A program made the position numbers and the translations under genes. A stretch of DNA of 64,000 nt from an uncultured Methylocystaceae bacterium (lineage in GTDB: Bacteria > Pseudomonadota > Alphaproteobacteria > Rhizobiales > Beijerinckiaceae): assembly GCA_903870245.1 (NCBI GenBank), contig CAIQCB010000062.1, positions 62,001 to 126,000 of the forward strand, read 5' to 3'. Shown in pieces: positions 25,564 to 51,059 of the stretch; the first letter of the stretch is position 1; each line of letters opens with the position of its first letter. The notes under the pieces were generated by a model. The model was not told the DNA's origin and ran no database searches. It saw nothing but the letters and a program-made list of their open reading frames with translations.

Positions 25564-26649
25564 TCAGGCGATTGCGCGTTCTGCGCCGGCGAGACGATCA
25601 AAAATCGCCAGCGCAAGCGCCTTTTTATCAAAATTGAAAACCTCCGTTTCACGCGCGAGCGCATGAATCTCGTCCCAGGCGCGGGCGAAACCGGCAAGCT
25701 GGGCCGGCGAAGCCCCAGCGCCGGCGAGGGTGCGCACTCGCCGGTCCATGTGGCGTTGCAGGGCGCGCATGAAGGTTTCGTAAGCGGCTTCGTTATCGCG
25801 ACCGGTCAGCTTGTCGGCCAGCATATGGACGCCAATCCAATCAATTTGCGGCAGGCGTTCGAAGAGTTTCGCAATCGTGGCGTCGAAGGCGAGCGCATCG
25901 CCATCAAGCAATCGCAACGCCTCCCGCACCGATCCTTCGGCGCGCGCTGCGGCGGCCTTGATTTCTTGCGCCGGACGAAGGGACCATGGCGCTCCGAGCG
26001 CGTCAATGGCATCAATGATCTCTATCTCCGACAAGCCGCCAAGCATGAGTTTGCGACAGCGCGAACGGATTGTTGGCAGAATGCGACCCGGCTGGTGCGC
26101 AATCAGCAGAAACAGCGATCGCGCCGGAGGCTCCTCGATCGACTTCAATAAGGCGTTGGCGGCGGAACGATTAAGGTCATCCGCGCAATCGACGATGCAA
26201 ACCCGCCAGCCGCCGGTCCCTGACGCCTGATGAAAAGCGTTGATCGCCTTGCGCACATCGTCAACGCGAATTTCGGTGAAATGTTTTCCCGGTTTCGTTT
26301 TATCGTTCCACTCGCGACGCAGGAGAAACATATCGGCCAGAGCCAGTGACGCGATGCGACGCGCCGCCGGATGATCTTCCGGAACCGAGAGATCGGCGAC
26401 GCCTTGCACAAGCGCCGCCGCTGGATCGGGATTCGCCAGTAGGAAGCGCGCAAGCCGCCAGGCCAGCGTCGCCTTGCCGACGCCCTCCGGTCCGCCAAGA
26501 ATCCAGGCCTGCGCCATGCGATTGCGACGATAGGCGTCAAGCAATTCATGCTCGGCGGCGGCGTGGCCAAAGAGCTTTTGCGTAACGCGCGGATGAGGCG
26601 CGTCTCCGAAACGATCGCTTTCAGGCGTTTCGACAAAATCGCGGCTCAT
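25564..26649 (-). CDS. holB: DNA polymerase III subunit delta' (clamp loader)
   Basis: A 361-residue AAA+ clamp-loader subunit. The P-loop-like segment GGPEGVGKAT is at 52-61 and the family segment VDCADDLNRSAANALLKSIEEPP is followed by the sensor region IAHQPGRILPTIRSRCR. The delta' subunit opens the sliding clamp with tau/gamma and delta. It follows tmk with a four-base overlap, the typical alphaproteobacterial order rlpA-dac-tmk-holB. The metG gene often found next is absent; convergent ilvD takes that place. Confidence 0.93.
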   Translation of the reverse strand: MSRDFVETPESDRFGDAPHPRVTQKLFGHAAAEHELLDAYRRNRMAQAWILGGPEGVGKATLAWRLARFLLANPDPAAALVQGVADLSVPEDHPAARRIASLALADMFLLRREWNDKTKPGKHFTEIRVDDVRKAINAFHQASGTGGWRVCIVDCADDLNRSAANALLKSIEEPPARSLFLLIAHQPGRILPTIRSRCRKLMLGGLSEIEIIDAIDALGAPWSLRPAQEIKAAAARAEGSVREALRLLDGDALAFDATIAKLFERLPQIDWIGVHMLADKLTGRDNEAAYETFMRALQRHMDRRVRTLAGAGASPAQLAGFARAWDEIHALARETEVFNFDKKALALAIFDRLAGAERAIA

Positions 26650-27320
26650 TGGGCGGCCATTCGTCTGACGCCATCCACCAAACGGACCGCGATCAGGTCA
26701 CGAATGGTCTGCGACACCTCCGCAACCGAACGCGTCGCGTCAATCACACAGCAACGAAGCGGATGACGCGCGGCGATATCGAGAAAGGCGTCGCGCAAGG
26801 AACGGTGAAAATCTATATTCTCCGCCTCGAAACGATCGACATTGACGCCGATCTGGCGGCGCGCAGCAGCGCGCGCCAGTCCTGTTTCCGGCGGCAAGTC
26901 CAGGATGAAGGTGAGATCCGGCGCAGTGGCGCCGACGGCGGCGCGTTCGAGTAAATCAATATCGCGCCGGGAAACGCCGCCGCGAGCGCCCTGATAGGCG
27001 CGGGTAGAGTCCGCGAAGCGGTCGCTGAGCACCCAGCCGCCCCGCGCAAGGGTCGGTTCAATGAGCCTGTCGACATGATCGATACGCGCGGCCGAAAAAA
27101 GCGTGGCTTCGGCGAGTGGGCCCAGCGAGGCGATTTTTCCCGAGAGTAAAATCTCTCGCAATCGCTCCGCCTTCGGCGTACCGCCTGGTTCGCGCGTCGA
27201 CGTGACATCAACGCCGCCGTCACGAAGATGTCTCGCCAGAAGTTCGATCTGTGTCGATTTACCAGCGCCCTCGCCACCCTCAAAGGTAATGAACCTGCCC
27301 CTGTGCGACCCGCCGATCAT
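26646..27320 (-). CDS. tmk: Thymidylate kinase
   Basis: Tmk phosphorylates dTMP to dTDP. The 224-residue protein has the P-loop FEGGEGAGKST (13-23), the DR-Y motif in SDRFADSTRAYQGA and the lid/substrate region ERAAVGATAPDLTFILDLPPETGLARAAAR. Start and stop overlap neighbours (four bases each), so it is coupled to both the carboxypeptidase-like gene upstream and holB downstream. Confidence 0.95.
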   Translation of the reverse strand: MIGGSHRGRFITFEGGEGAGKSTQIELLARHLRDGGVDVTSTREPGGTPKAERLREILLSGKIASLGPLAEATLFSAARIDHVDRLIEPTLARGGWVLSDRFADSTRAYQGARGGVSRRDIDLLERAAVGATAPDLTFILDLPPETGLARAAARRQIGVNVDRFEAENIDFHRSLRDAFLDIAARHPLRCCVIDATRSVAEVSQTIRDLIAVRLVDGVRRMAAQ

Positions 27321-28513
27321 TTTTTACCGGCCAATTTCTGATAAAGTGCTCCGGCGGCGAGTTCGTAGAGCGCATCGAAAAACCGTCCCGTCAAGGAACC
27401 ATTGTCAATAGTTTCCGCCGTTTGCAGGGATTGGGTAAGCGCTAGCGCATCGCCGCGACGGATTTCCAGTCTACCGACTGGCGCGCCGGCGGCGACAGGC
27501 GCCATCACCGGGCCTTCGTATAAGATCTTTCCGGTAAGTTTCGTTTCGCCCGATCGAGGCAAAAGCATGCGCACGTCGGTCTTAGACGTCAGGGACACCG
27601 AGCTGCGCGCTCCCCCGTAAACGACCGCCAGACCAATTGGATCGCCGGCCTTGAACAACACTCTCTCTTCGAAACTCCGGAACCCCCATTGCAGAAGTTT
27701 CTGGGCCTCGTCGGCTCGTTCTTTTGCTGTTTTGGCGCCGAAGACGGCGACGATCAGACGTCGTCCGTCCTGAGTTGCGGAGCCGACAAGGTTGAAAGTC
27801 GAAGCATCGGAAGCCCCGGCGACCAGGCCATCCGCTGCGGGGCTGAGAGTCAGCAGCGGGTTACGATTCTGTTGACGAATTTTGTTGAAGGTAAATTCCT
27901 TCTCGCCAAAGTAATGATAATACTGCGGATAGGCGGATATGACATGCGCGGCGAGGCGGGCCATATCGCGAACGGTTACTTTTTGTTCGTTGCTTTCCTT
28001 GCCCCAAGGACTGGCGAAGCGCGAACGTCCAAGACCCAGTTCGGCGGCGCGCTTGTTCATCCGCGCGACAAACGCGTCTTCGGAGCCGGCGACGCCTTCC
28101 GCCAGCACGAGCGCCGCGTCATTTCCGGACACGACCAGCAATCCCCTGAGAAGTTCATCGACCGAGGCCGTGCTTTTGACAGGCAGAAACATCGCCGCAC
28201 CGCCGGATGGGGCGCCGCCGTTACGCCAGGCGTAATCTGAGACCGGAAGCTTGTCGCTCAGTTGCAATCGGCCTGCGGCCAATTCGGCAAAGATCAGCTC
28301 TGCCGTCAGAATCTTGACTATCGCGCCCGGCGCCGCCGGCGCATCGGCGGCTTTCTCGAAAAGCGCCGTATTGGTGCCGGCGTCGATTAAAATCGCGTTG
28401 GGAACGCTGGTTTGCATGTCCTGGGCGCTGGCGATTGACGCACAGGACGACAACAGGAGCGCCAATGCGAAGCTCAGGGAAGATGCAAGGAAATTTATCA
28501 AGGGAGAGCGCAT
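27317..28513 (-). CDS. D-Ala-D-Ala carboxypeptidase (PBP5/DacA-type) homologue with lost catalytic motifs
   Basis: A 398-residue exported protein of the serine peptidase S11 family. The signal segment is at about 8-30; LLSSC is lipobox-like. The fold is recognisable, including the C-terminal PBP5 beta domain (about 285-355) and an amphipathic C-terminal helix. The catalytic SxxK motif reads GAIVK (Ala64 instead of Ser, codon at 28322-28324), and KTG reads VAG (231-233, codons at 27815-27823). Only SGN (129-131) is intact. As written it cannot form the acyl-enzyme, so it is probably a pseudo-enzyme that binds or scaffolds rather than a carboxypeptidase. The frame is uninterrupted and it is coupled to tmk, so it is kept under selection. 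Confidence 0.88.
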   Translation of the reverse strand: MRSPLINFLASSLSFALALLLSSCASIASAQDMQTSVPNAILIDAGTNTALFEKAADAPAAPGAIVKILTAELIFAELAAGRLQLSDKLPVSDYAWRNGGAPSGGAAMFLPVKSTASVDELLRGLLVVSGNDAALVLAEGVAGSEDAFVARMNKRAAELGLGRSRFASPWGKESNEQKVTVRDMARLAAHVISAYPQYYHYFGEKEFTFNKIRQQNRNPLLTLSPAADGLVAGASDASTFNLVGSATQDGRRLIVAVFGAKTAKERADEAQKLLQWGFRSFEERVLFKAGDPIGLAVVYGGARSSVSLTSKTDVRMLLPRSGETKLTGKILYEGPVMAPVAAGAPVGRLEIRRGDALALTQSLQTAETIDNGSLTGRFFDALYELAAGALYQKLAGKK

Positions 28514-28593: not shown

Positions 28594-29427
28594 CTAGCGC
28601 GCGCGGCTCTCGCTCTCGGCGCCCTCGACTGAAGCGGTGTTGGGGATAACGGGAGTTTCGTTGGTGGTATCCGGGCCGGCATAGGCGAGCGGGGCGTTTT
28701 CCGGCTCAAGCGCCGCAGCGGCGACGCGGCTCGGCGCCACATCCCTCAAGGCGGTCATGACAGGTTCTTCGCCGTCAAGGCTCGCCGGTTCGCTCTCGCG
28801 CAGTGTAGCCAGCAGCCTGGCGTCTTCGTCGCCGCCTAGATCGGCTTTCCCGATCCATTCGACCTTTACTTTCGCCGTGCCGGCGGCTTTGAAGTCCAGC
28901 GCCTCGGCGGTGCGTTGCGAGACGTCCATCACCCGACCGCCATGATAGGGGCCACGGTCATTGACGCGAACTATGATCGAGCGATCGTTTTTCAGATTAG
29001 TGACGCGCGCATAGCTGGGCAGCGGCATGGTCGGATGAGCGGCGGTGATCGATGTGCGGTCGAAGACTTCGCCATTGGCCGTCCGCCGACCATGAAAATC
29101 CGAACCGTACCATGAGGCCATGCCGACGGCGCTAAAGGGTTTCTCGCTTGGATAATAGGTTTTGCCGGCAATCCTGTAGGGTTTGCCTACCATATAATTG
29201 CCGCCGCCTTTCGGGGCCGCTTCGCCGTCGGCGATAACGCGCGGACTGGTCTTTACGCCGTATTTTGTGTTGAATTTACCGGTCGTCGCCAGTCCCGCAT
29301 AATAAGGCGTTGGGTCAGAGGTCGAGGCGCAGCCCGTGAGGGCCAGGGCGGCAAAAAAGACCGGAATTTTCAAGAAGCGCGAGGACTGCGGAAAAAGAGA
29401 GCGGAGCTGGTCTCGAAACACGCGCAT
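28594..29427 (-). CDS. rlpA: RlpA-type septal lytic transglycosylase lipoprotein
   Basis: A 277-residue RlpA. The N-terminal lipoprotein signal is FLKIPVFFAALALTGCAS. The double-psi beta-barrel has ASWYGSDFHGRRTANGEVFD, ITAAHPTMPLPSYARVTN and VRVNDRGPYHGGRVMDVS; the Glu, His and Asp linked to catalysis in RlpA are present. No C-terminal SPOR domain is visible; the last ~80 residues are low-complexity. RlpA cleaves glycan strands lacking stem peptides. The frame is open to 29505 through an in-frame repeat, but the ATG at 29427 has AAGGA at good spacing and gives a proper signal peptide. It is followed by the dac-like gene after 80 bp. Confidence 0.9.
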   Translation of the reverse strand: MRVFRDQLRSLFPQSSRFLKIPVFFAALALTGCASTSDPTPYYAGLATTGKFNTKYGVKTSPRVIADGEAAPKGGGNYMVGKPYRIAGKTYYPSEKPFSAVGMASWYGSDFHGRRTANGEVFDRTSITAAHPTMPLPSYARVTNLKNDRSIIVRVNDRGPYHGGRVMDVSQRTAEALDFKAAGTAKVKVEWIGKADLGGDEDARLLATLRESEPASLDGEEPVMTALRDVAPSRVAAAALEPENAPLAYAGPDTTNETPVIPNTASVEGAESESRAR

Positions 29428-29461
29428 CAAACTTTTCCTTCGCCCCGCCGGCACGTGGCCC

Positions 29462-29515
29462 TGTTGCATCGCATCGACTTGTTGCATCGAATGGACTTGT
29501 TGCATCGAATGTCCA
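29462..29515. repeat. Three tandem 18-bp units upstream of rlpA
   Basis: Units at 29462-29479, 29480-29497 and 29498-29515 share tgttgcatcg-atg-act, the third with a diverged end. On the rlpA strand each unit reads ATGCAACA and, because 18 is a multiple of three, all three ATGs are in frame with rlpA. They lie 35 to 88 bases upstream of the preferred start. Confidence 0.85.
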
Positions 29516-45614: not shown

Positions 45615-48600
45615 TCAGGATATTTTCTTTCCACGGTATTCGACGCTTTCCAGACGCAGATCGCCCTTGGGCTCAAACGCGTCGGGACGAAGCTTCAGTT
45701 CACCGTTCTCGAATTCGATCCCCAGCATGGCGTAAGCCGCCGACATCATTCGCGCAGCGGCTCCCGTGTACCAGCTCCAGCCGCCATGTCCCACATAACC
45801 GGGGCCCTCGTAAACATCGGCCGGTTGCTGGTGCGGCGGCAAACCGTAAATATCCGCCTCGGCGGGCGTCGTCAGCTTGGAGATGGGGGAAATGGCGATC
45901 CATGTCTCGAAGGCCTGCCGGAACAGCGCTTCTGCGGATTGCGCGTCGCCCTCGGCGCGGGCCTGAACCGCGAGTTTCGCCAGCGCGTCAACAAACCACG
46001 ATACGCCATGCGAATACTGGCCGCCGTTTTCGCGAACGCCCGGCGGATATTCGGCGCTTCGGCCCGGATAGGGGCTGGAGTGCTCGTCATAGGCTGGCGT
46101 GACCAGCAGCACGCGGTTTGGACGGCCCAGAGCGGCGAGCGCGTTCTGGATTGTTTCTCGTCCACGCGAAGCGTCGACGGCATGGCTGAGTACAGGCCAT
46201 GAAGAGGTCATGGCGCTCATCGGATCAACGGGACGGCCATCGTCGGCGTAATCGCGCACATAACGATTTCCGATCCAGCATTTGTCGAGAGCGGCGCGTA
46301 ATTTGTCAGCACGCTCGCGATAGCGCGCGGCGCGGACCGCGTCGCCTTTCGACTCAAAGAGCGGCGCGATGTCCAACAGGATTCCATGCAGGAAGAATCC
46401 AAGCCAGACGCTTTCCCCGCGTCCCTTGGCGCCAACGAGGTGCATGCCGTCGTCCCAGTCGCCCGAACCAACCAGAGGAAGATCGTGCGCCCCGAAACGG
46501 GCGAGCGTGTAATCGATTGCGCGCGCGCAATGGCCAAGAAGCGTGTCCTTGTCACGCGACACCAGCGGCACCGTCGCCTCGCCCTCCTGTTCCTTTGGCA
46601 CAGGATTGGCTTCCAGGAACGGCTCGACCTGATCGAGAATGGCCTCGTCGCCGGTGCCCTTGACATAACGTATGGTTACGTAAGGCAGCCACAGATGCGG
46701 ATCTGAGGAATGAGTGCGGTCGGCGAGCCCGGTGCCGCCGTTGGGGGCGCGATGCCACCATTTGCAAGCGTCGCCTTCCAGATATTGATGACGGGCGTGA
46801 AGCAGGATTTGAGCGCGCGCCCGCTCCGGCGCGAGATGCACGAGCGGCAGAACGTCCTGCAACTGGTCACGATAGCCGGTGGCCCCTGAGCGCTGCGACG
46901 GGCCAGTGCGGCCCCACAAACGCGCCGCCAGCAGTTGATATGGCAGCCAGTCGTTCACGAGACGGTCGACGTCCGGACGATTGGTTTTGATCCTCAGAAC
47001 GGAAAGCTGGGCGTTCCAGGCTTTGCGGCTTTCCTCCTGTGCCTTGAGTGCATAGTTGACGTCGCGCCCAAGCGAGGCGAGCCGCTTGGCTTCGTCCATG
47101 TTTGTTGTTTGCCCGAGCGCCACGACGACCGTCGCCTCGCCGCCGCCGGGGATGTCGATGGCGCCACAAAAAGCGGCCACCTTGCGTTCGTGGTCCGGCG
47201 CGCCAGCGTCGGGATGGCCGTGTTCGACCATGTAGGGCAAGCGGGGATCCCGGCTTTCATGGCCAAGAAATCGGCGTCGCGAGGTTTCAGCGAATTCCGC
47301 CGGAATTGACGTCGAGACGAAAGCCCATCCCTTGACGAAGTTATTGCGCGGATTGCGATAGTATATTGTGCGCAGATCATCGTCGATCACCGATTCAACG
47401 GCGCCCAGACTTTCGGATGGCGTTTCGGCCAGCACAATCTCCATCGCCGGCACAATCTGCAGCAACCTTTCATGATCCGACATATTTCGGATACGCAACA
47501 ACTTGAATTCGATCGGCTCGGTCGGACTGACGAAGACCGTCATTTCCAGTTCGAGGGCGTCGCGCGTCGCACGATAGACGGCTTCGCCCGGCGCGAAGGT
47601 CACCTGATAATCAACGTCGCGTCGTCGCAAGGGCACGAAGGTGGGACTATGCGCATCGCCACGGGCGAGATCGTAGACGTAAATCATCTGGCCAGCCGGG
47701 GCCGTGCGGCCCTCGCCCATGCGAAAGGGCGTGAAGCTGTTCAGTCGCGAATTGCCGTGAAAGGAGAAGATGTCGCCATCGTTGGTCAGCACGGCGCCCT
47801 GCCCGACCGCATTGGCGATCACATGCGCAAATGGACGCGGCGTTCCTGGCCCTAGGGTCAGACGACGACCATCCTCCGAGAAAGCGAACCTGTGCGATTG
47901 CGGCGGCGGCGGCATGATCAAATTGCGTTGGCGCGACAAGGCCCTGTCGAGCGTCGCAGGCGCGGGCGGCACAATCTCCAGGTGGCGCGCGACGGCGTCC
48001 GTCGCCAGCCCCATGTTCTGCGCCCAACCGTCGAGGATGATTACCTCCGCCGAGCCGGAAGCTGCGATGTCGACCTCGACAAACAGACTCGCGCAGGGCT
48101 CGAAGCCATAAAGCAAGCCTTCATCGTCCGGATCGCGGGGATGGCTGAGGCCCAGCAGACTGTCCGGCGCCGTCGTTGGCCCCATGCCATAAAACCGTGA
48201 TTTTACATCTTCGTAACCGACGATCTTGAGCCGGGTGTCGGCGCCCGCGCCGATCGCATGAAAACCGATTTCCGGCGACAAACGACGATCGGCGTGACGC
48301 CGGGCCCCACCCTTGAGCAAGCGGTTTTGCGCAAAGATGGCGTTTAACGAACGCACATACCAAACACCGATATGCAGGGAGTTGTAGGCCGAATCTCGTA
48401 ACTCGACGCCTGTCTCGTTCAGAACCCATTCGCGCAGGCTGGCAAGCGTCAGTTTGCGGGCGCGCGGTTCGAGATTGACGATACGCAATCGCGTAACTTC
48501 AACGGCTTCGTCAGCCGCAAGCGACACACGGGCTTCGACGGCGAAACCATTCTGTTCGGTCATCAGAAAAAGACAATTTTCGCCGGCGTCGTTCAATGTG

Positions 48601-51059
48601 GCGGCGGCGCCGCATCGCGTCGGCGCTTCGCCAAGCGACCACAATTCGCCGCCCTCTTCGCGCAGATAGACGAAACGGCCGCGCGGATGCGCTGGGTCAT
48701 CCGGTCGTCGGGTTAGATCGATAGGTGGGCCGCCGCGCGCTACGCCCTCAATGCGCAAGGCGCCCTGACTGTCCTGAAACCACTCGCTGGTCATCAGCCC
48801 GTTTGTGAGTTTTAGCGGGCGCGATCCGGGCGAGCCGCCGGCGCCGGTAACGCCTTCAAGCGGGATCTTTTGCGCCTGAGCCAGTCGCGCGAGCAGGAAC
48901 ACCACAAGCCCCAGCGCCACGAAGGCGGCGTAAATCAGATAACCGCCGACCAGATAGGTGTAGGACGGCGGTCGCGACTGAACGAGTTGTTCCGCGCCGC
49001 TCCAGGCCTTGTCCCACTCCGCGCCATGAGGAATGTAAAACGGCAACAGCAAAGGCAACCATGTGCCAAAGCGGCGAATGCCCTCGGGAATAGCGCGGCT
49101 AATTTGCTCTTTGCCGACGAATTGCGCGGCTTTCTCATCCAGCGCGTCCCCGCCGACGAAGGACAGGTTTACCAGCGTTGCGACGCGAAGACCCATGTGA
49201 TCGAACCAGATCAGCACGCGCAAGGCGTCATAGGCGAGCATGGCCATGAAAATATCTACGCTCCACGACCGGAATTCGCCTTCAGGCAAAACGTAATTCA
49301 TCCAGGTGGCGACGCCGGTGCGGATCAAGCCGTCCTGATTGTACCAGGTGGGATCGGGGGCGGCCTTCAGGAATGAATAGATGACCGGCGCCATCCAGAG
49401 GCCCCATCGCAACACCCGAACGGCGTTTTCAATGAGCATGTCGAGGCCTTCCCAACTCGCCAGTTGACGCAGAGGCCGGAGGCTTCGGGTCATCAGCGCG
49501 GTCAGAAAGAAAAGATTGATCGAGAACAGGGGAGCCGCAAACACCCACTGAATAACGCCGGAAAAAGACTCGTCGTAAAGCAGGCGCGCGGCGCCATCCA
49601 CGGGTCCGAGATCGGTCGTTCCCCATTTCGAGAAGAGCGGCCTGATGATGTAATTTTCAACCGGCCGCCCGTCGCGGGCGTAATCAAGAGAATTATAGGC
49701 GGCAAACTTCTTAAGTATGGTTTCGACCTGGCCTATATCAAGATACCAGGCGACGGCGCCGGCGACAAAACCACCAAGCAGAATTCCCAGCGTATAAACA
49801 CGCCAGCTCCGGAAATGCTGTCTGCGCTTCCTGGACAGCTCGGCGCCGTCGAAAGCCGCGTCGACTCCGGCGTAAACCAGCGCACCGGCAATAAAGCCGA
49901 AAGCGAAACGTTCCCATCCTCCGGCCGCCGGTAAATTCATTGACAGGCCGATGGCTACCGCTGCGCCGGCGACAACGCCACGCGCGTAATTTGAGGGGCG
50001 CGCGAAGCATTCCTGAAGCCGCCCCAAAAATGGCGGCGTTGAGTCGGTGCTCTCAACAATGGCCCGGCCCAGTGGGAAAACGAACGCGCCGAGCGCAGCG
50101 GCTCCCAGAGGCCCGGTCGCCGAGATCAAACCCGCCAGCGGCGGGAATGAAGCCGCCAGACCCGCCCCCAAAACCACGCCCATGAAAACCAGGCCGTAAA
50201 TGAATCCCTTTTCGGCGCCAACGCGCCAGTCGTGATAGACCACGGCTGACAACGAAGGCGTCGCTCGCAGCAAACCCGCCAGAGATTGTGTGACCAGATA
50301 AGTTTCCCCCCACAGTCCGGCCTGTGCAAGGCCCACCAGCAACGCGGCGCAAATCGCGGCGAGCGGCCTTGGCAGATAGGGAGTCGCGTAGAGCGTTTCA
50401 GCCGAGGCGATGAAAGGGGTGAGCGAGGCCAGGAAGGCGGCGCCGAGCAAGATATGGTGCGGTCGCCACTGGGTGGGCAGGAAACGCCCCAAAGCCAGCG
50501 GCACGCCAACGACCACCGCCTCGTTCAGCAAGAATAACACTAGCGTGCGACCAAGCACCTTTCGCAACGCTTCGGGCGCCTCAACGCCAAATAACAGCGC
50601 CCCCCCGAGTTGTGTCACAGGCGGCGCGCCAAGCGCCAGCACAAGGCTGAAAATGAAGGGCAGCGCGAACAGGCCCGCGCGCAGGGCGATCCGCGACCTG
50701 GCGGCCAGCCCGGAGACGCCCAAAACGTAAAGACCGGCGGCGACTCCCGCGCCGACCGATGAAAATCGTATGATTTGATCCAGCGTCTCGGGCGCGCGCC
50801 AGAGCGGATTGGCCGGATCGCAGAAATAGGCAAAAAGCGTGATTACGATAAAGTCGATTGCGCTGGCCGCAGCCTGACGAGGCAGATCATGCGTCGGACG
50901 CAGCAAATAGATCGCGGCGGCGCCGGCAATCCCGGCGAGAATCGATCTGTCCCTGCCCTGCGCCGCTTCCATCACGCAGAGGCCGGTCAAAGCGAGACCG
51001 ATTAACAGGCGAACAATCACACCGCCAGACGTGTTCCCTTCGTTGCGGACCGCCGCCAT
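45615..51059 (-). CDS. Giant membrane protein with C-terminal GH94-type phosphorylase module
   Basis: A 1,814-residue protein. Residues 1 to ~731 hold many hydrophobic helices and no glycosyltransferase motif. From ~745 two beta-sandwich domains (about 745-1040 and 1080-1325) lead to a GH94-type (alpha/alpha)6 domain with SGATGYRDQLQD (1391-1402), VGSGDWDDGM and VRENGGQYSHG, ending GHGGWSWYTGAAARMM. The C-terminal half resembles that of cyclic beta-1,2-glucan synthase NdvB/ChvB, which is ~2,800 residues with a GT84 domain; that domain is absent here. It may therefore trim, phosphorolyse or export a glucan rather than make one. Orientation relative to the membrane cannot be decided from sequence. 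Confidence 0.83.
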   Translation of the reverse strand: MAAVRNEGNTSGGVIVRLLIGLALTGLCVMEAAQGRDRSILAGIAGAAAIYLLRPTHDLPRQAAASAIDFIVITLFAYFCDPANPLWRAPETLDQIIRFSSVGAGVAAGLYVLGVSGLAARSRIALRAGLFALPFIFSLVLALGAPPVTQLGGALLFGVEAPEALRKVLGRTLVLFLLNEAVVVGVPLALGRFLPTQWRPHHILLGAAFLASLTPFIASAETLYATPYLPRPLAAICAALLVGLAQAGLWGETYLVTQSLAGLLRATPSLSAVVYHDWRVGAEKGFIYGLVFMGVVLGAGLAASFPPLAGLISATGPLGAAALGAFVFPLGRAIVESTDSTPPFLGRLQECFARPSNYARGVVAGAAVAIGLSMNLPAAGGWERFAFGFIAGALVYAGVDAAFDGAELSRKRRQHFRSWRVYTLGILLGGFVAGAVAWYLDIGQVETILKKFAAYNSLDYARDGRPVENYIIRPLFSKWGTTDLGPVDGAARLLYDESFSGVIQWVFAAPLFSINLFFLTALMTRSLRPLRQLASWEGLDMLIENAVRVLRWGLWMAPVIYSFLKAAPDPTWYNQDGLIRTGVATWMNYVLPEGEFRSWSVDIFMAMLAYDALRVLIWFDHMGLRVATLVNLSFVGGDALDEKAAQFVGKEQISRAIPEGIRRFGTWLPLLLPFYIPHGAEWDKAWSGAEQLVQSRPPSYTYLVGGYLIYAAFVALGLVVFLLARLAQAQKIPLEGVTGAGGSPGSRPLKLTNGLMTSEWFQDSQGALRIEGVARGGPPIDLTRRPDDPAHPRGRFVYLREEGGELWSLGEAPTRCGAAATLNDAGENCLFLMTEQNGFAVEARVSLAADEAVEVTRLRIVNLEPRARKLTLASLREWVLNETGVELRDSAYNSLHIGVWYVRSLNAIFAQNRLLKGGARRHADRRLSPEIGFHAIGAGADTRLKIVGYEDVKSRFYGMGPTTAPDSLLGLSHPRDPDDEGLLYGFEPCASLFVEVDIAASGSAEVIILDGWAQNMGLATDAVARHLEIVPPAPATLDRALSRQRNLIMPPPPQSHRFAFSEDGRRLTLGPGTPRPFAHVIANAVGQGAVLTNDGDIFSFHGNSRLNSFTPFRMGEGRTAPAGQMIYVYDLARGDAHSPTFVPLRRRDVDYQVTFAPGEAVYRATRDALELEMTVFVSPTEPIEFKLLRIRNMSDHERLLQIVPAMEIVLAETPSESLGAVESVIDDDLRTIYYRNPRNNFVKGWAFVSTSIPAEFAETSRRRFLGHESRDPRLPYMVEHGHPDAGAPDHERKVAAFCGAIDIPGGGEATVVVALGQTTNMDEAKRLASLGRDVNYALKAQEESRKAWNAQLSVLRIKTNRPDVDRLVNDWLPYQLLAARLWGRTGPSQRSGATGYRDQLQDVLPLVHLAPERARAQILLHARHQYLEGDACKWWHRAPNGGTGLADRTHSSDPHLWLPYVTIRYVKGTGDEAILDQVEPFLEANPVPKEQEGEATVPLVSRDKDTLLGHCARAIDYTLARFGAHDLPLVGSGDWDDGMHLVGAKGRGESVWLGFFLHGILLDIAPLFESKGDAVRAARYRERADKLRAALDKCWIGNRYVRDYADDGRPVDPMSAMTSSWPVLSHAVDASRGRETIQNALAALGRPNRVLLVTPAYDEHSSPYPGRSAEYPPGVRENGGQYSHGVSWFVDALAKLAVQARAEGDAQSAEALFRQAFETWIAISPISKLTTPAEADIYGLPPHQQPADVYEGPGYVGHGGWSWYTGAAARMMSAAYAMLGIEFENGELKLRPDAFEPKGDLRLESVEYRGKKIS

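Follow-up and report, generated by a model that had tools for sequence, protein, structure and literature searches.

Penicillin-binding protein 5 (PBP5, DacA, b0632) is the major DD-carboxypeptidase of Escherichia coli (PMC2909392) and combines a Peptidase_S11 domain, a PBP5_C domain and a C-terminal amphipathic helix. Replacement of the nucleophile in an otherwise whole protein, as in the laboratory mutant PBP5(S44G), is described as abolishing both penicillin binding and activity, and the mutant protein also loses its localisation at midcell, which its authors ascribe to lost interaction with the substrate (PMC2909392). The same inactive protein makes E. coli cells bulge merely by being present, and either titration of divisome proteins or interference with elongation is proposed as the cause (PMC5596342). 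Peptidase domains that are degenerate by nature are found among the LytM factors, such as DipM and EnvC, which are retained as regulators of wall enzymes and where, in the case of DipM, the groove of the degenerate site is reported to be a docking site (PMC10336132); however, these proteins have a metallopeptidase fold and belong to an unrelated family, and the likeness to the protein described below is therefore an analogy of working only. A different architecture is represented by the DD-carboxypeptidases CrbA of Caulobacter and DD-CPase1 of Bradyrhizobium, in which a SPOR domain is reported (PMC10336132, PMC5567381). In this article, we describe an orthologue of PBP5 that has lost catalytic residues in nature; we found no published account of this loss in the open-licence literature, from which subscription papers are mostly missing.

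The gene lies in a stretch of 64,000 nucleotides from an uncultured Methylocystaceae bacterium, referred to here as the window. It occupies positions 27317..28513 of the minus strand, starts with ATG and encodes 398 amino acids. Directly upstream on the same strand, and separated from it by 80 bases, is rlpA (28594..29505, 303 amino acids), which encodes a DPBB lytic transglycosylase; downstream the stop codon overlaps by 4 bases (27317-27320) with the ATG of the thymidylate kinase gene tmk (26646..27320, minus strand), and tmk is followed by a holB-like gene for the DNA polymerase III delta-prime subunit (25564..26649, minus strand). The coupling to tmk and the position after rlpA are thus as first described. 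rlpA is also found directly upstream of the corresponding gene in E. coli K-12, where the order is mrdA-mrdB-rlpA-dacA and then ybeD-lipB instead of tmk-holB, and in Sinorhizobium meliloti. In the window RlpA, Pfam recognizes the lytic transglycosylase domain only, with no SPOR domain at E 0.001. A scan for promoters and terminators gave no promoter signal beyond chance, with 2 promoter-like sites where 1.8 would be expected. The longest open reading frame of the window, at 45615-51059 on the minus strand, is a single frame of 1814 amino acids.

The domain composition of the window protein is that of PBP5, with Peptidase_S11 at residues 32-262 (E 8.4e-54) followed by PBP5_C (PF07943, E 9e-15) at residues 281-369 (27407..27673, minus strand). 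The predicted structure (pLDDT 83.2) has PBP5 of Pseudomonas and PBP6 and PBP5 of E. coli as its best matches in the PDB. A C-terminal helix is predicted at residues 374-395 (27329..27394, minus strand), and its part 374-391 is amphipathic with a hydrophobic moment of 0.37, reached by 2.7% of shuffled sequences, compared to 0.43 in E. coli; the segment resembles the membrane anchor of PBP5 and is predicted to bind the membrane. Given the S11 and PBP5_C domains and a gene order like that of E. coli, we regard the gene as the orthologue of PBP5. None of the NCBIfam equivalog models scored above its own cut-off for this protein or for the S. meliloti copy. We also considered whether the protein is a lipoprotein, as the signal peptide ends in an LSSC stretch that resembles a lipobox, and rejected the idea since, by eye, the window protein is the sole carrier among 17 sequences.

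Alignment with E. coli PBP5 (32% identity) locates the changes, all on the minus strand. The AIVK that begins at residue 64 aligns with S44-K47, so that alanine stands in the place of the SxxK nucleophile Ser44 (codon 64, 28322..28324) and the lysine corresponding to Lys47 is kept (codon 67, 28313..28315). The third motif, KTG, is replaced by VAG at codons 231-233 (27815..27823), i.e., Val-Ala stands for Lys213-Thr214 of Lys213-Thr214-Gly215. Lys213 of E. coli PBP5 has a role in carboxypeptidase activity. The SGN at codons 129-131 (28121..28129) aligns with S110-N112, and the equivalents of Ser110 and Asn112 are both kept. A fourth difference is at codon 106 (28196..28198), where alanine replaces the equivalent of Ser87, a residue that is serine in 98.4% of 128 intact rows of our alignment (rows of the family together with some from other families). 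The features of a PBP5-type S11 peptidase are thus divided: the succession of S11 and PBP5_C and the SxN motif are present, and the serine of SxxK and the KTG motif are missing. The original prediction, that a PBP5/DacA fold with SGN but with AxxK and VAG is encoded here in an intact frame, agrees with all these observations, the fold and C-terminal domain being retained as far as sequence matching and the model can indicate.

Within the genus, an operon-type protein was present in 36 of the 39 genomes searched; the nearest named record is a Methylocystis metagenome-assembled genome. SxxK, SGN and KTG are all present in 30 of these 36 copies, and the remaining six, including that of the window genome, are changed. 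In the sister Methylocystis genome (G035, 78% identical; equal in sequence to record JALRFG010000122.1, Methylocystis sp. JZJ.7), the equivalent places are occupied by ATVK and AAG. The other four (G022, G024, G037 and G016) have MTG instead of KTG and retain SxxK. In the tree, the window and G035 proteins are sisters (SH-aLRT 100) and a trio of MTG copies forms the sister group of both (98), which suggests that loss of the lysine probably preceded that of the serine in this lineage. Relatives with SxxK and KTG at the same site had been named as evidence against an inactive form. They make up 30 of the 36 genus members, but since G035 shares the loss and the nearest clade of three genomes combines SxxK with MTG, these intact copies date the loss rather than refute it.

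Selection on the PBP5 protein outlasted the loss of its catalytic residues. Between the window genome and G035, which both lack Ser64, Lys231 and Thr232, dN/dS of the PBP5 gene is 0.110 and does not exceed that of four neighbouring genes (tmk 0.184, holB 0.111, rlpA 0.223, recJ 0.123); the two S11 paralogues have 0.106 and 0.157. These NG86 estimates are rough where pS is near 0.6. With the catalytic residues gone and selection still acting, the protein qualifies as a pseudoenzyme. An equivalent loss in a second genome together with a dN/dS of 0.11 argues against both a sequencing error and a recent pseudogene, which upholds the initial judgement that neither an error nor a recent frameshift is involved.

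A look for a separate active DacA elsewhere in the genome had been suggested, and the window genome does contain two further S11 proteins with intact motifs, one of each of two paralogue types. The one with a SPOR domain carries SxxK, SAN and KTG and resembles CrbA and DD-CPase1, which presumably are likewise S11 proteins, with SPOR where PBP5 has PBP5_C. We looked for both types in 29 genomes whose operon copy is degenerate and added the best 30 S11 matches (29 of the SPOR type) found in 31 genomes of the family that have no operon copy. SxxK, SxN and KTG are present in all 88 scorable entries of the 90 obtained. Three genes had been fetched twice (L245/L300, L255/L302 and L271/L301), the last being a fragment at a contig edge in which KTG alone is visible, and the distinct scorable genes are intact in 86 of 86 cases, including all 58 distinct scorable copies (60 entries) of the SPOR type. 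A general decay of S11 proteins in these genomes is thereby ruled out for the paralogues examined; so far as these genes show, the loss belongs to the operon gene, and carboxypeptidase activity can come from the paralogues. Compensation by additional S11 copies was not a rule, as the S11 totals per genome are 2-5 where the operon copy is degenerate (45 genomes) and 3-5 where it is intact (35 genomes). In four genomes of one genus code, g27, a second intact S11 copy that resembles the operon type more than the usual paralogues do occurs in stretches without rlpA or tmk (L179, L180, L181 and L182); the operon copy has AxxK in two of the four, and the match to the second copy at L182 (G102) was reported with one TGA.

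The original prediction treated the inactive form as a peculiarity of this one gene, which does not hold: the same operon copy lacks catalytic residues repeatedly across the order, which we take, from the lineage of Methylocystis and Sinorhizobium, to be Hyphomicrobiales. In our draw from the family, the operon type was found in 118 of 149 genomes at E 1e-60; 93 copies have all seven letters of the three motifs, one or more catalytic residues are missing in 24, and one copy is truncated before SxxK. In the order as a whole, at least one catalytic residue is missing in 81 of the 292 distinct operon copies examined and in 14 of 44 family codes, counts that come from a sample influenced by hand, with a few named loci that carry no family code, and that do not represent a rate. 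The 81 copies comprise 64 of 263 in a first set and 17 of 29 fetched later. The sample of the order was assembled from 60 stretches picked by hand among the matches listed, 21 loci among those with the best scores in that list, and new loci from two sets of chosen genomes (29 from 40 and 29 from 30). The last 30 genomes belong to five families, of which two have MreC and the other three were known, or suspected, to be degenerate. Proteins were taken as stop-to-stop frames, so their N-termini are inexact. No internal stop occurs in the operon-type matches listed.

Among the 64 degenerate copies of the first set, the residue missing most often is Lys231 (49 copies), followed by Ser129 (33), Thr232 (29) and Ser64 (13); losses of Asn131 (5), Lys67 (3) and Gly233 (1) are rarer. 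No single residue takes the place of Lys231, where M, A, V, L, F, S, Q, T, G, I and N all occur. Copies that lack Lys231 or Thr232 alone may retain some activity or penicillin binding, and the seven in which only Thr232 is missing (KVG, Rhodoblastus-like) are the least certain of the degenerate cases. With the motif columns removed before tree building, parsimony on the resulting 267-row tree requires a minimum of 17 changes if any loss is counted, and of 15 for Lys231, 14 for SxN and 7 for Ser64; these tallies include all changes and not losses alone, come from trees made by a quick method with a single-matrix model, and leave out the far rows L049-L055, the truncated L168 and the paralogues. 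All sampled copies are degenerate in three families (10 of 10 in f24, 11 of 11 in f42 and 3 of 3 in f11, where all three motifs are gone), and all 11 of the more distant named copies (L045-L055) are intact. In f11, the three copies (L447, L448 and L450) have NxxK, YAN or HAN, and alanine for the glycine of KTG across three genus codes; such a similar replacement of all three motifs may reflect a new site common to these copies and not drift. In two copies of another family (L368 and L372, f13), the SxxK lysine is gone as well, SxN and KTG are changed, and the frame is open.

Degenerate motifs were also found in all three named Sinorhizobium and Shinella copies. In S. meliloti Ak57, rlpA, an annotated D-alanyl-D-alanine carboxypeptidase (UIJ96504.1), tmk, the gene for DNA polymerase III delta-prime and metG follow one another, and UIJ96504.1 has SLAK, LAN instead of SxN and ATG instead of KTG. 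The motifs of Sinorhizobium sp. M103 are identical to these, and the Shinella sp. copy has FAN and VTG. Four putative DD-carboxypeptidases of S. meliloti are tabulated in PMC7327166, and the operon gene may be one of them. A record of 3.72 Mb labelled as S. meliloti plasmid pSymB (L418, CP090106.1) carries rlpA-dac-tmk-holB-metG. The label may belong to a chromosome instead, judging by what we take to be the usual size of pSymB.

The changes concentrate at the active site, unlike a random decay. Among 78 columns that are at least 95% conserved in the 128 intact rows, Lys231 and Ser106 stand out, each with changes in 12 of the 15 degenerate groups, and the next most changed column follows with 6 of 15. 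Ser106 is lost in 46 of 64 degenerate rows versus 8 of 203 others, including four outgroup rows, and in 12 phylogenetically independent pairs its loss and catalytic loss went the same way in 8.1 pairs on average and the opposite way in 0.0 (median p 0.008). Ala106 is also present in 8 of 12 intact copies of families f12 and f32, so we consider the loss of Ser106 a correlate and not a marker of inactivity. Conservation of YHYFGEKEF in alignment A2 was set aside since YHYFGEKE had been a search pattern and was hence selected for. In 13 pairs of degenerate copies, dN/dS ranges from 0.02 to 0.29 with a median of 0.172, compared to a median of 0.082 in 11 intact pairs; for these pairs, which were chosen by us and not matched for divergence between the two sets, the approximately twofold higher ratio indicates that constraint is partly relaxed yet far from gone.

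The operon type was not found at E 1e-60 in 31 family genomes, and a repeated search of these with a profile gave only shorter, paralogue-type matches in 29 and no match at E 1e-20 in the other two. In 26 of the 31 genomes tmk was found, and rlpA is directly upstream of it in 25, with no S11 gene found in those stretches; the stretch of the 26th contains no rlpA. The five genomes that also lack a tmk match may be incomplete assemblies. Absence of the gene from 26 genomes that have tmk indicates that the role of PBP5 is dispensable and that the gene can go cleanly, and the 25 genomes that keep rlpA beside tmk appear to count against an obligatory link between PBP5 and RlpA. In one genome in which no operon-type PBP5 was found (L407, G095), the tmk match contains one in-frame TGA.

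Degenerate copies tend to occur where MreC is not detected. At E 1e-5, none of the 45 genomes whose copy is degenerate gave an MreC match, versus 6 of 35 with an intact copy (Fisher p 0.005, relatedness ignored); the 80 genomes were chosen by us, some of the degenerate ones are incomplete (e.g., 66%, 78%, 81% and 82%), and 29 of the 35 intact-copy genomes likewise have no MreC match. No degenerate copies were found in f12 (0 of 5) and f32 (0 of 11), and the three tested members of these families carry MreC. Agrobacterium is reported to lack RodA and PBP2, and "dac" is described as synthetically essential in an Agrobacterium mutant without one group of LD-transpeptidases (PMC11527210); according to a review, modelling has LdtD meet the hinge domain of PBP5 (PMC12729407).

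We consider it probable, though far from certain, that the window gene is a PBP5 orthologue that has turned into a pseudoenzyme and is kept for a non-catalytic role, probably based on contact, in lineages without MreC. By analogy with PBP5(S44G) (PMC2909392), the window protein would be neither acylated nor able to cleave D-Ala-D-Ala, and, going by the comparison of sequences, its loss is one case of a recurrent, in-frame change under apparent purifying selection that affects the operon gene across the order and spares the paralogues examined. A function by contact could outlive catalysis, and this may be why the membrane-anchored protein is kept; most likely it would belong, in a structural or regulatory capacity, to the machinery that builds the wall in the periplasm. 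The DD-carboxypeptidase activity would come from the two S11 paralogues with intact motifs, of which one has a SPOR domain. Perhaps, too, the absence of the MreC elongasome permits the change: inactive PBP5(S44G) is engineered and harms the shape of E. coli, whereas the natural form is maintained (PMC5596342), and where the MreC machinery that it would otherwise disturb is missing, an inactive PBP5 could be tolerated. Still more tentative is a wider proposition, which we hold to be doubtful, that in Hyphomicrobiales without MreC, PBP5 was repeatedly and independently made a non-catalytic structural part of a growth machinery based on LD-transpeptidases and PBP1.

The original prediction proposed a protein that binds stem peptides or partners, perhaps as a regulator of RlpA or the divisome. 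A decoy that binds stem peptides without cleaving them, so that pentapeptides are shielded or growth sites are marked as has been suggested for E. coli PBP6a, would fit the SGN and Lys67 kept in the window protein and the loss of Lys67 in only 3 of 64 degenerate copies. We find it unlikely, because the losses extend to the pocket itself (Lys231 in 49, Ser106 in 46, Ser129 in 33 and Thr232 in 29 of the 64) and because the mislocalisation of PBP5(S44G) is read as lost interaction with substrate (PMC2909392); loss of the Lys213 equivalent in 49 copies would in particular make plain binding of stem peptides the weaker half of that proposal. Had the activity become redundant, the residues might instead drift slowly in a gene heading for deletion. 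The clean absence from 26 genomes that have tmk, which rlpA still directly precedes in 25, and the roughly doubled dN/dS of degenerate pairs are what such neutral decay would leave; but dN/dS stays within 0.02 to 0.29 in all 13 pairs, no internal stop occurs among the operon-type matches listed, whole families are degenerate in every sampled copy and the changes cluster at the active site, all of which renders decay rather improbable.

Changed chemistry, in which the remodelled site still works with a different substrate or mechanism, at least where Ser64 and Lys67 are kept (51 and 61 of the 64 degenerate copies, respectively), strikes us as quite improbable given that the window protein has no nucleophile and that position 231 has taken up varied residues and no single new one. 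An error of sequencing or assembly, for which one could cite the 66 contigs of the window assembly, is negligible when three catalytic codons and position 106 all differ and G035 repeats the serine-to-alanine change and has AAG at the same places.

If an orthologue of PBP5 repeatedly lost catalysis while selection on it continued, it follows that PBP5 has a second function, masked by catalysis, which would be open to study here without interfering activity. The protein would also be a candidate for a part in organising wall growth where MreC is not found or where, as reported for Agrobacterium, RodA and PBP2 are missing (PMC11527210). The annotation of the S. meliloti operon gene would then be corrected, and, under the wider and doubtful proposition on Hyphomicrobiales, the annotated DD-carboxypeptidases in the rlpA-tmk operon of Sinorhizobium and its relatives would be scaffolds rather than enzymes.
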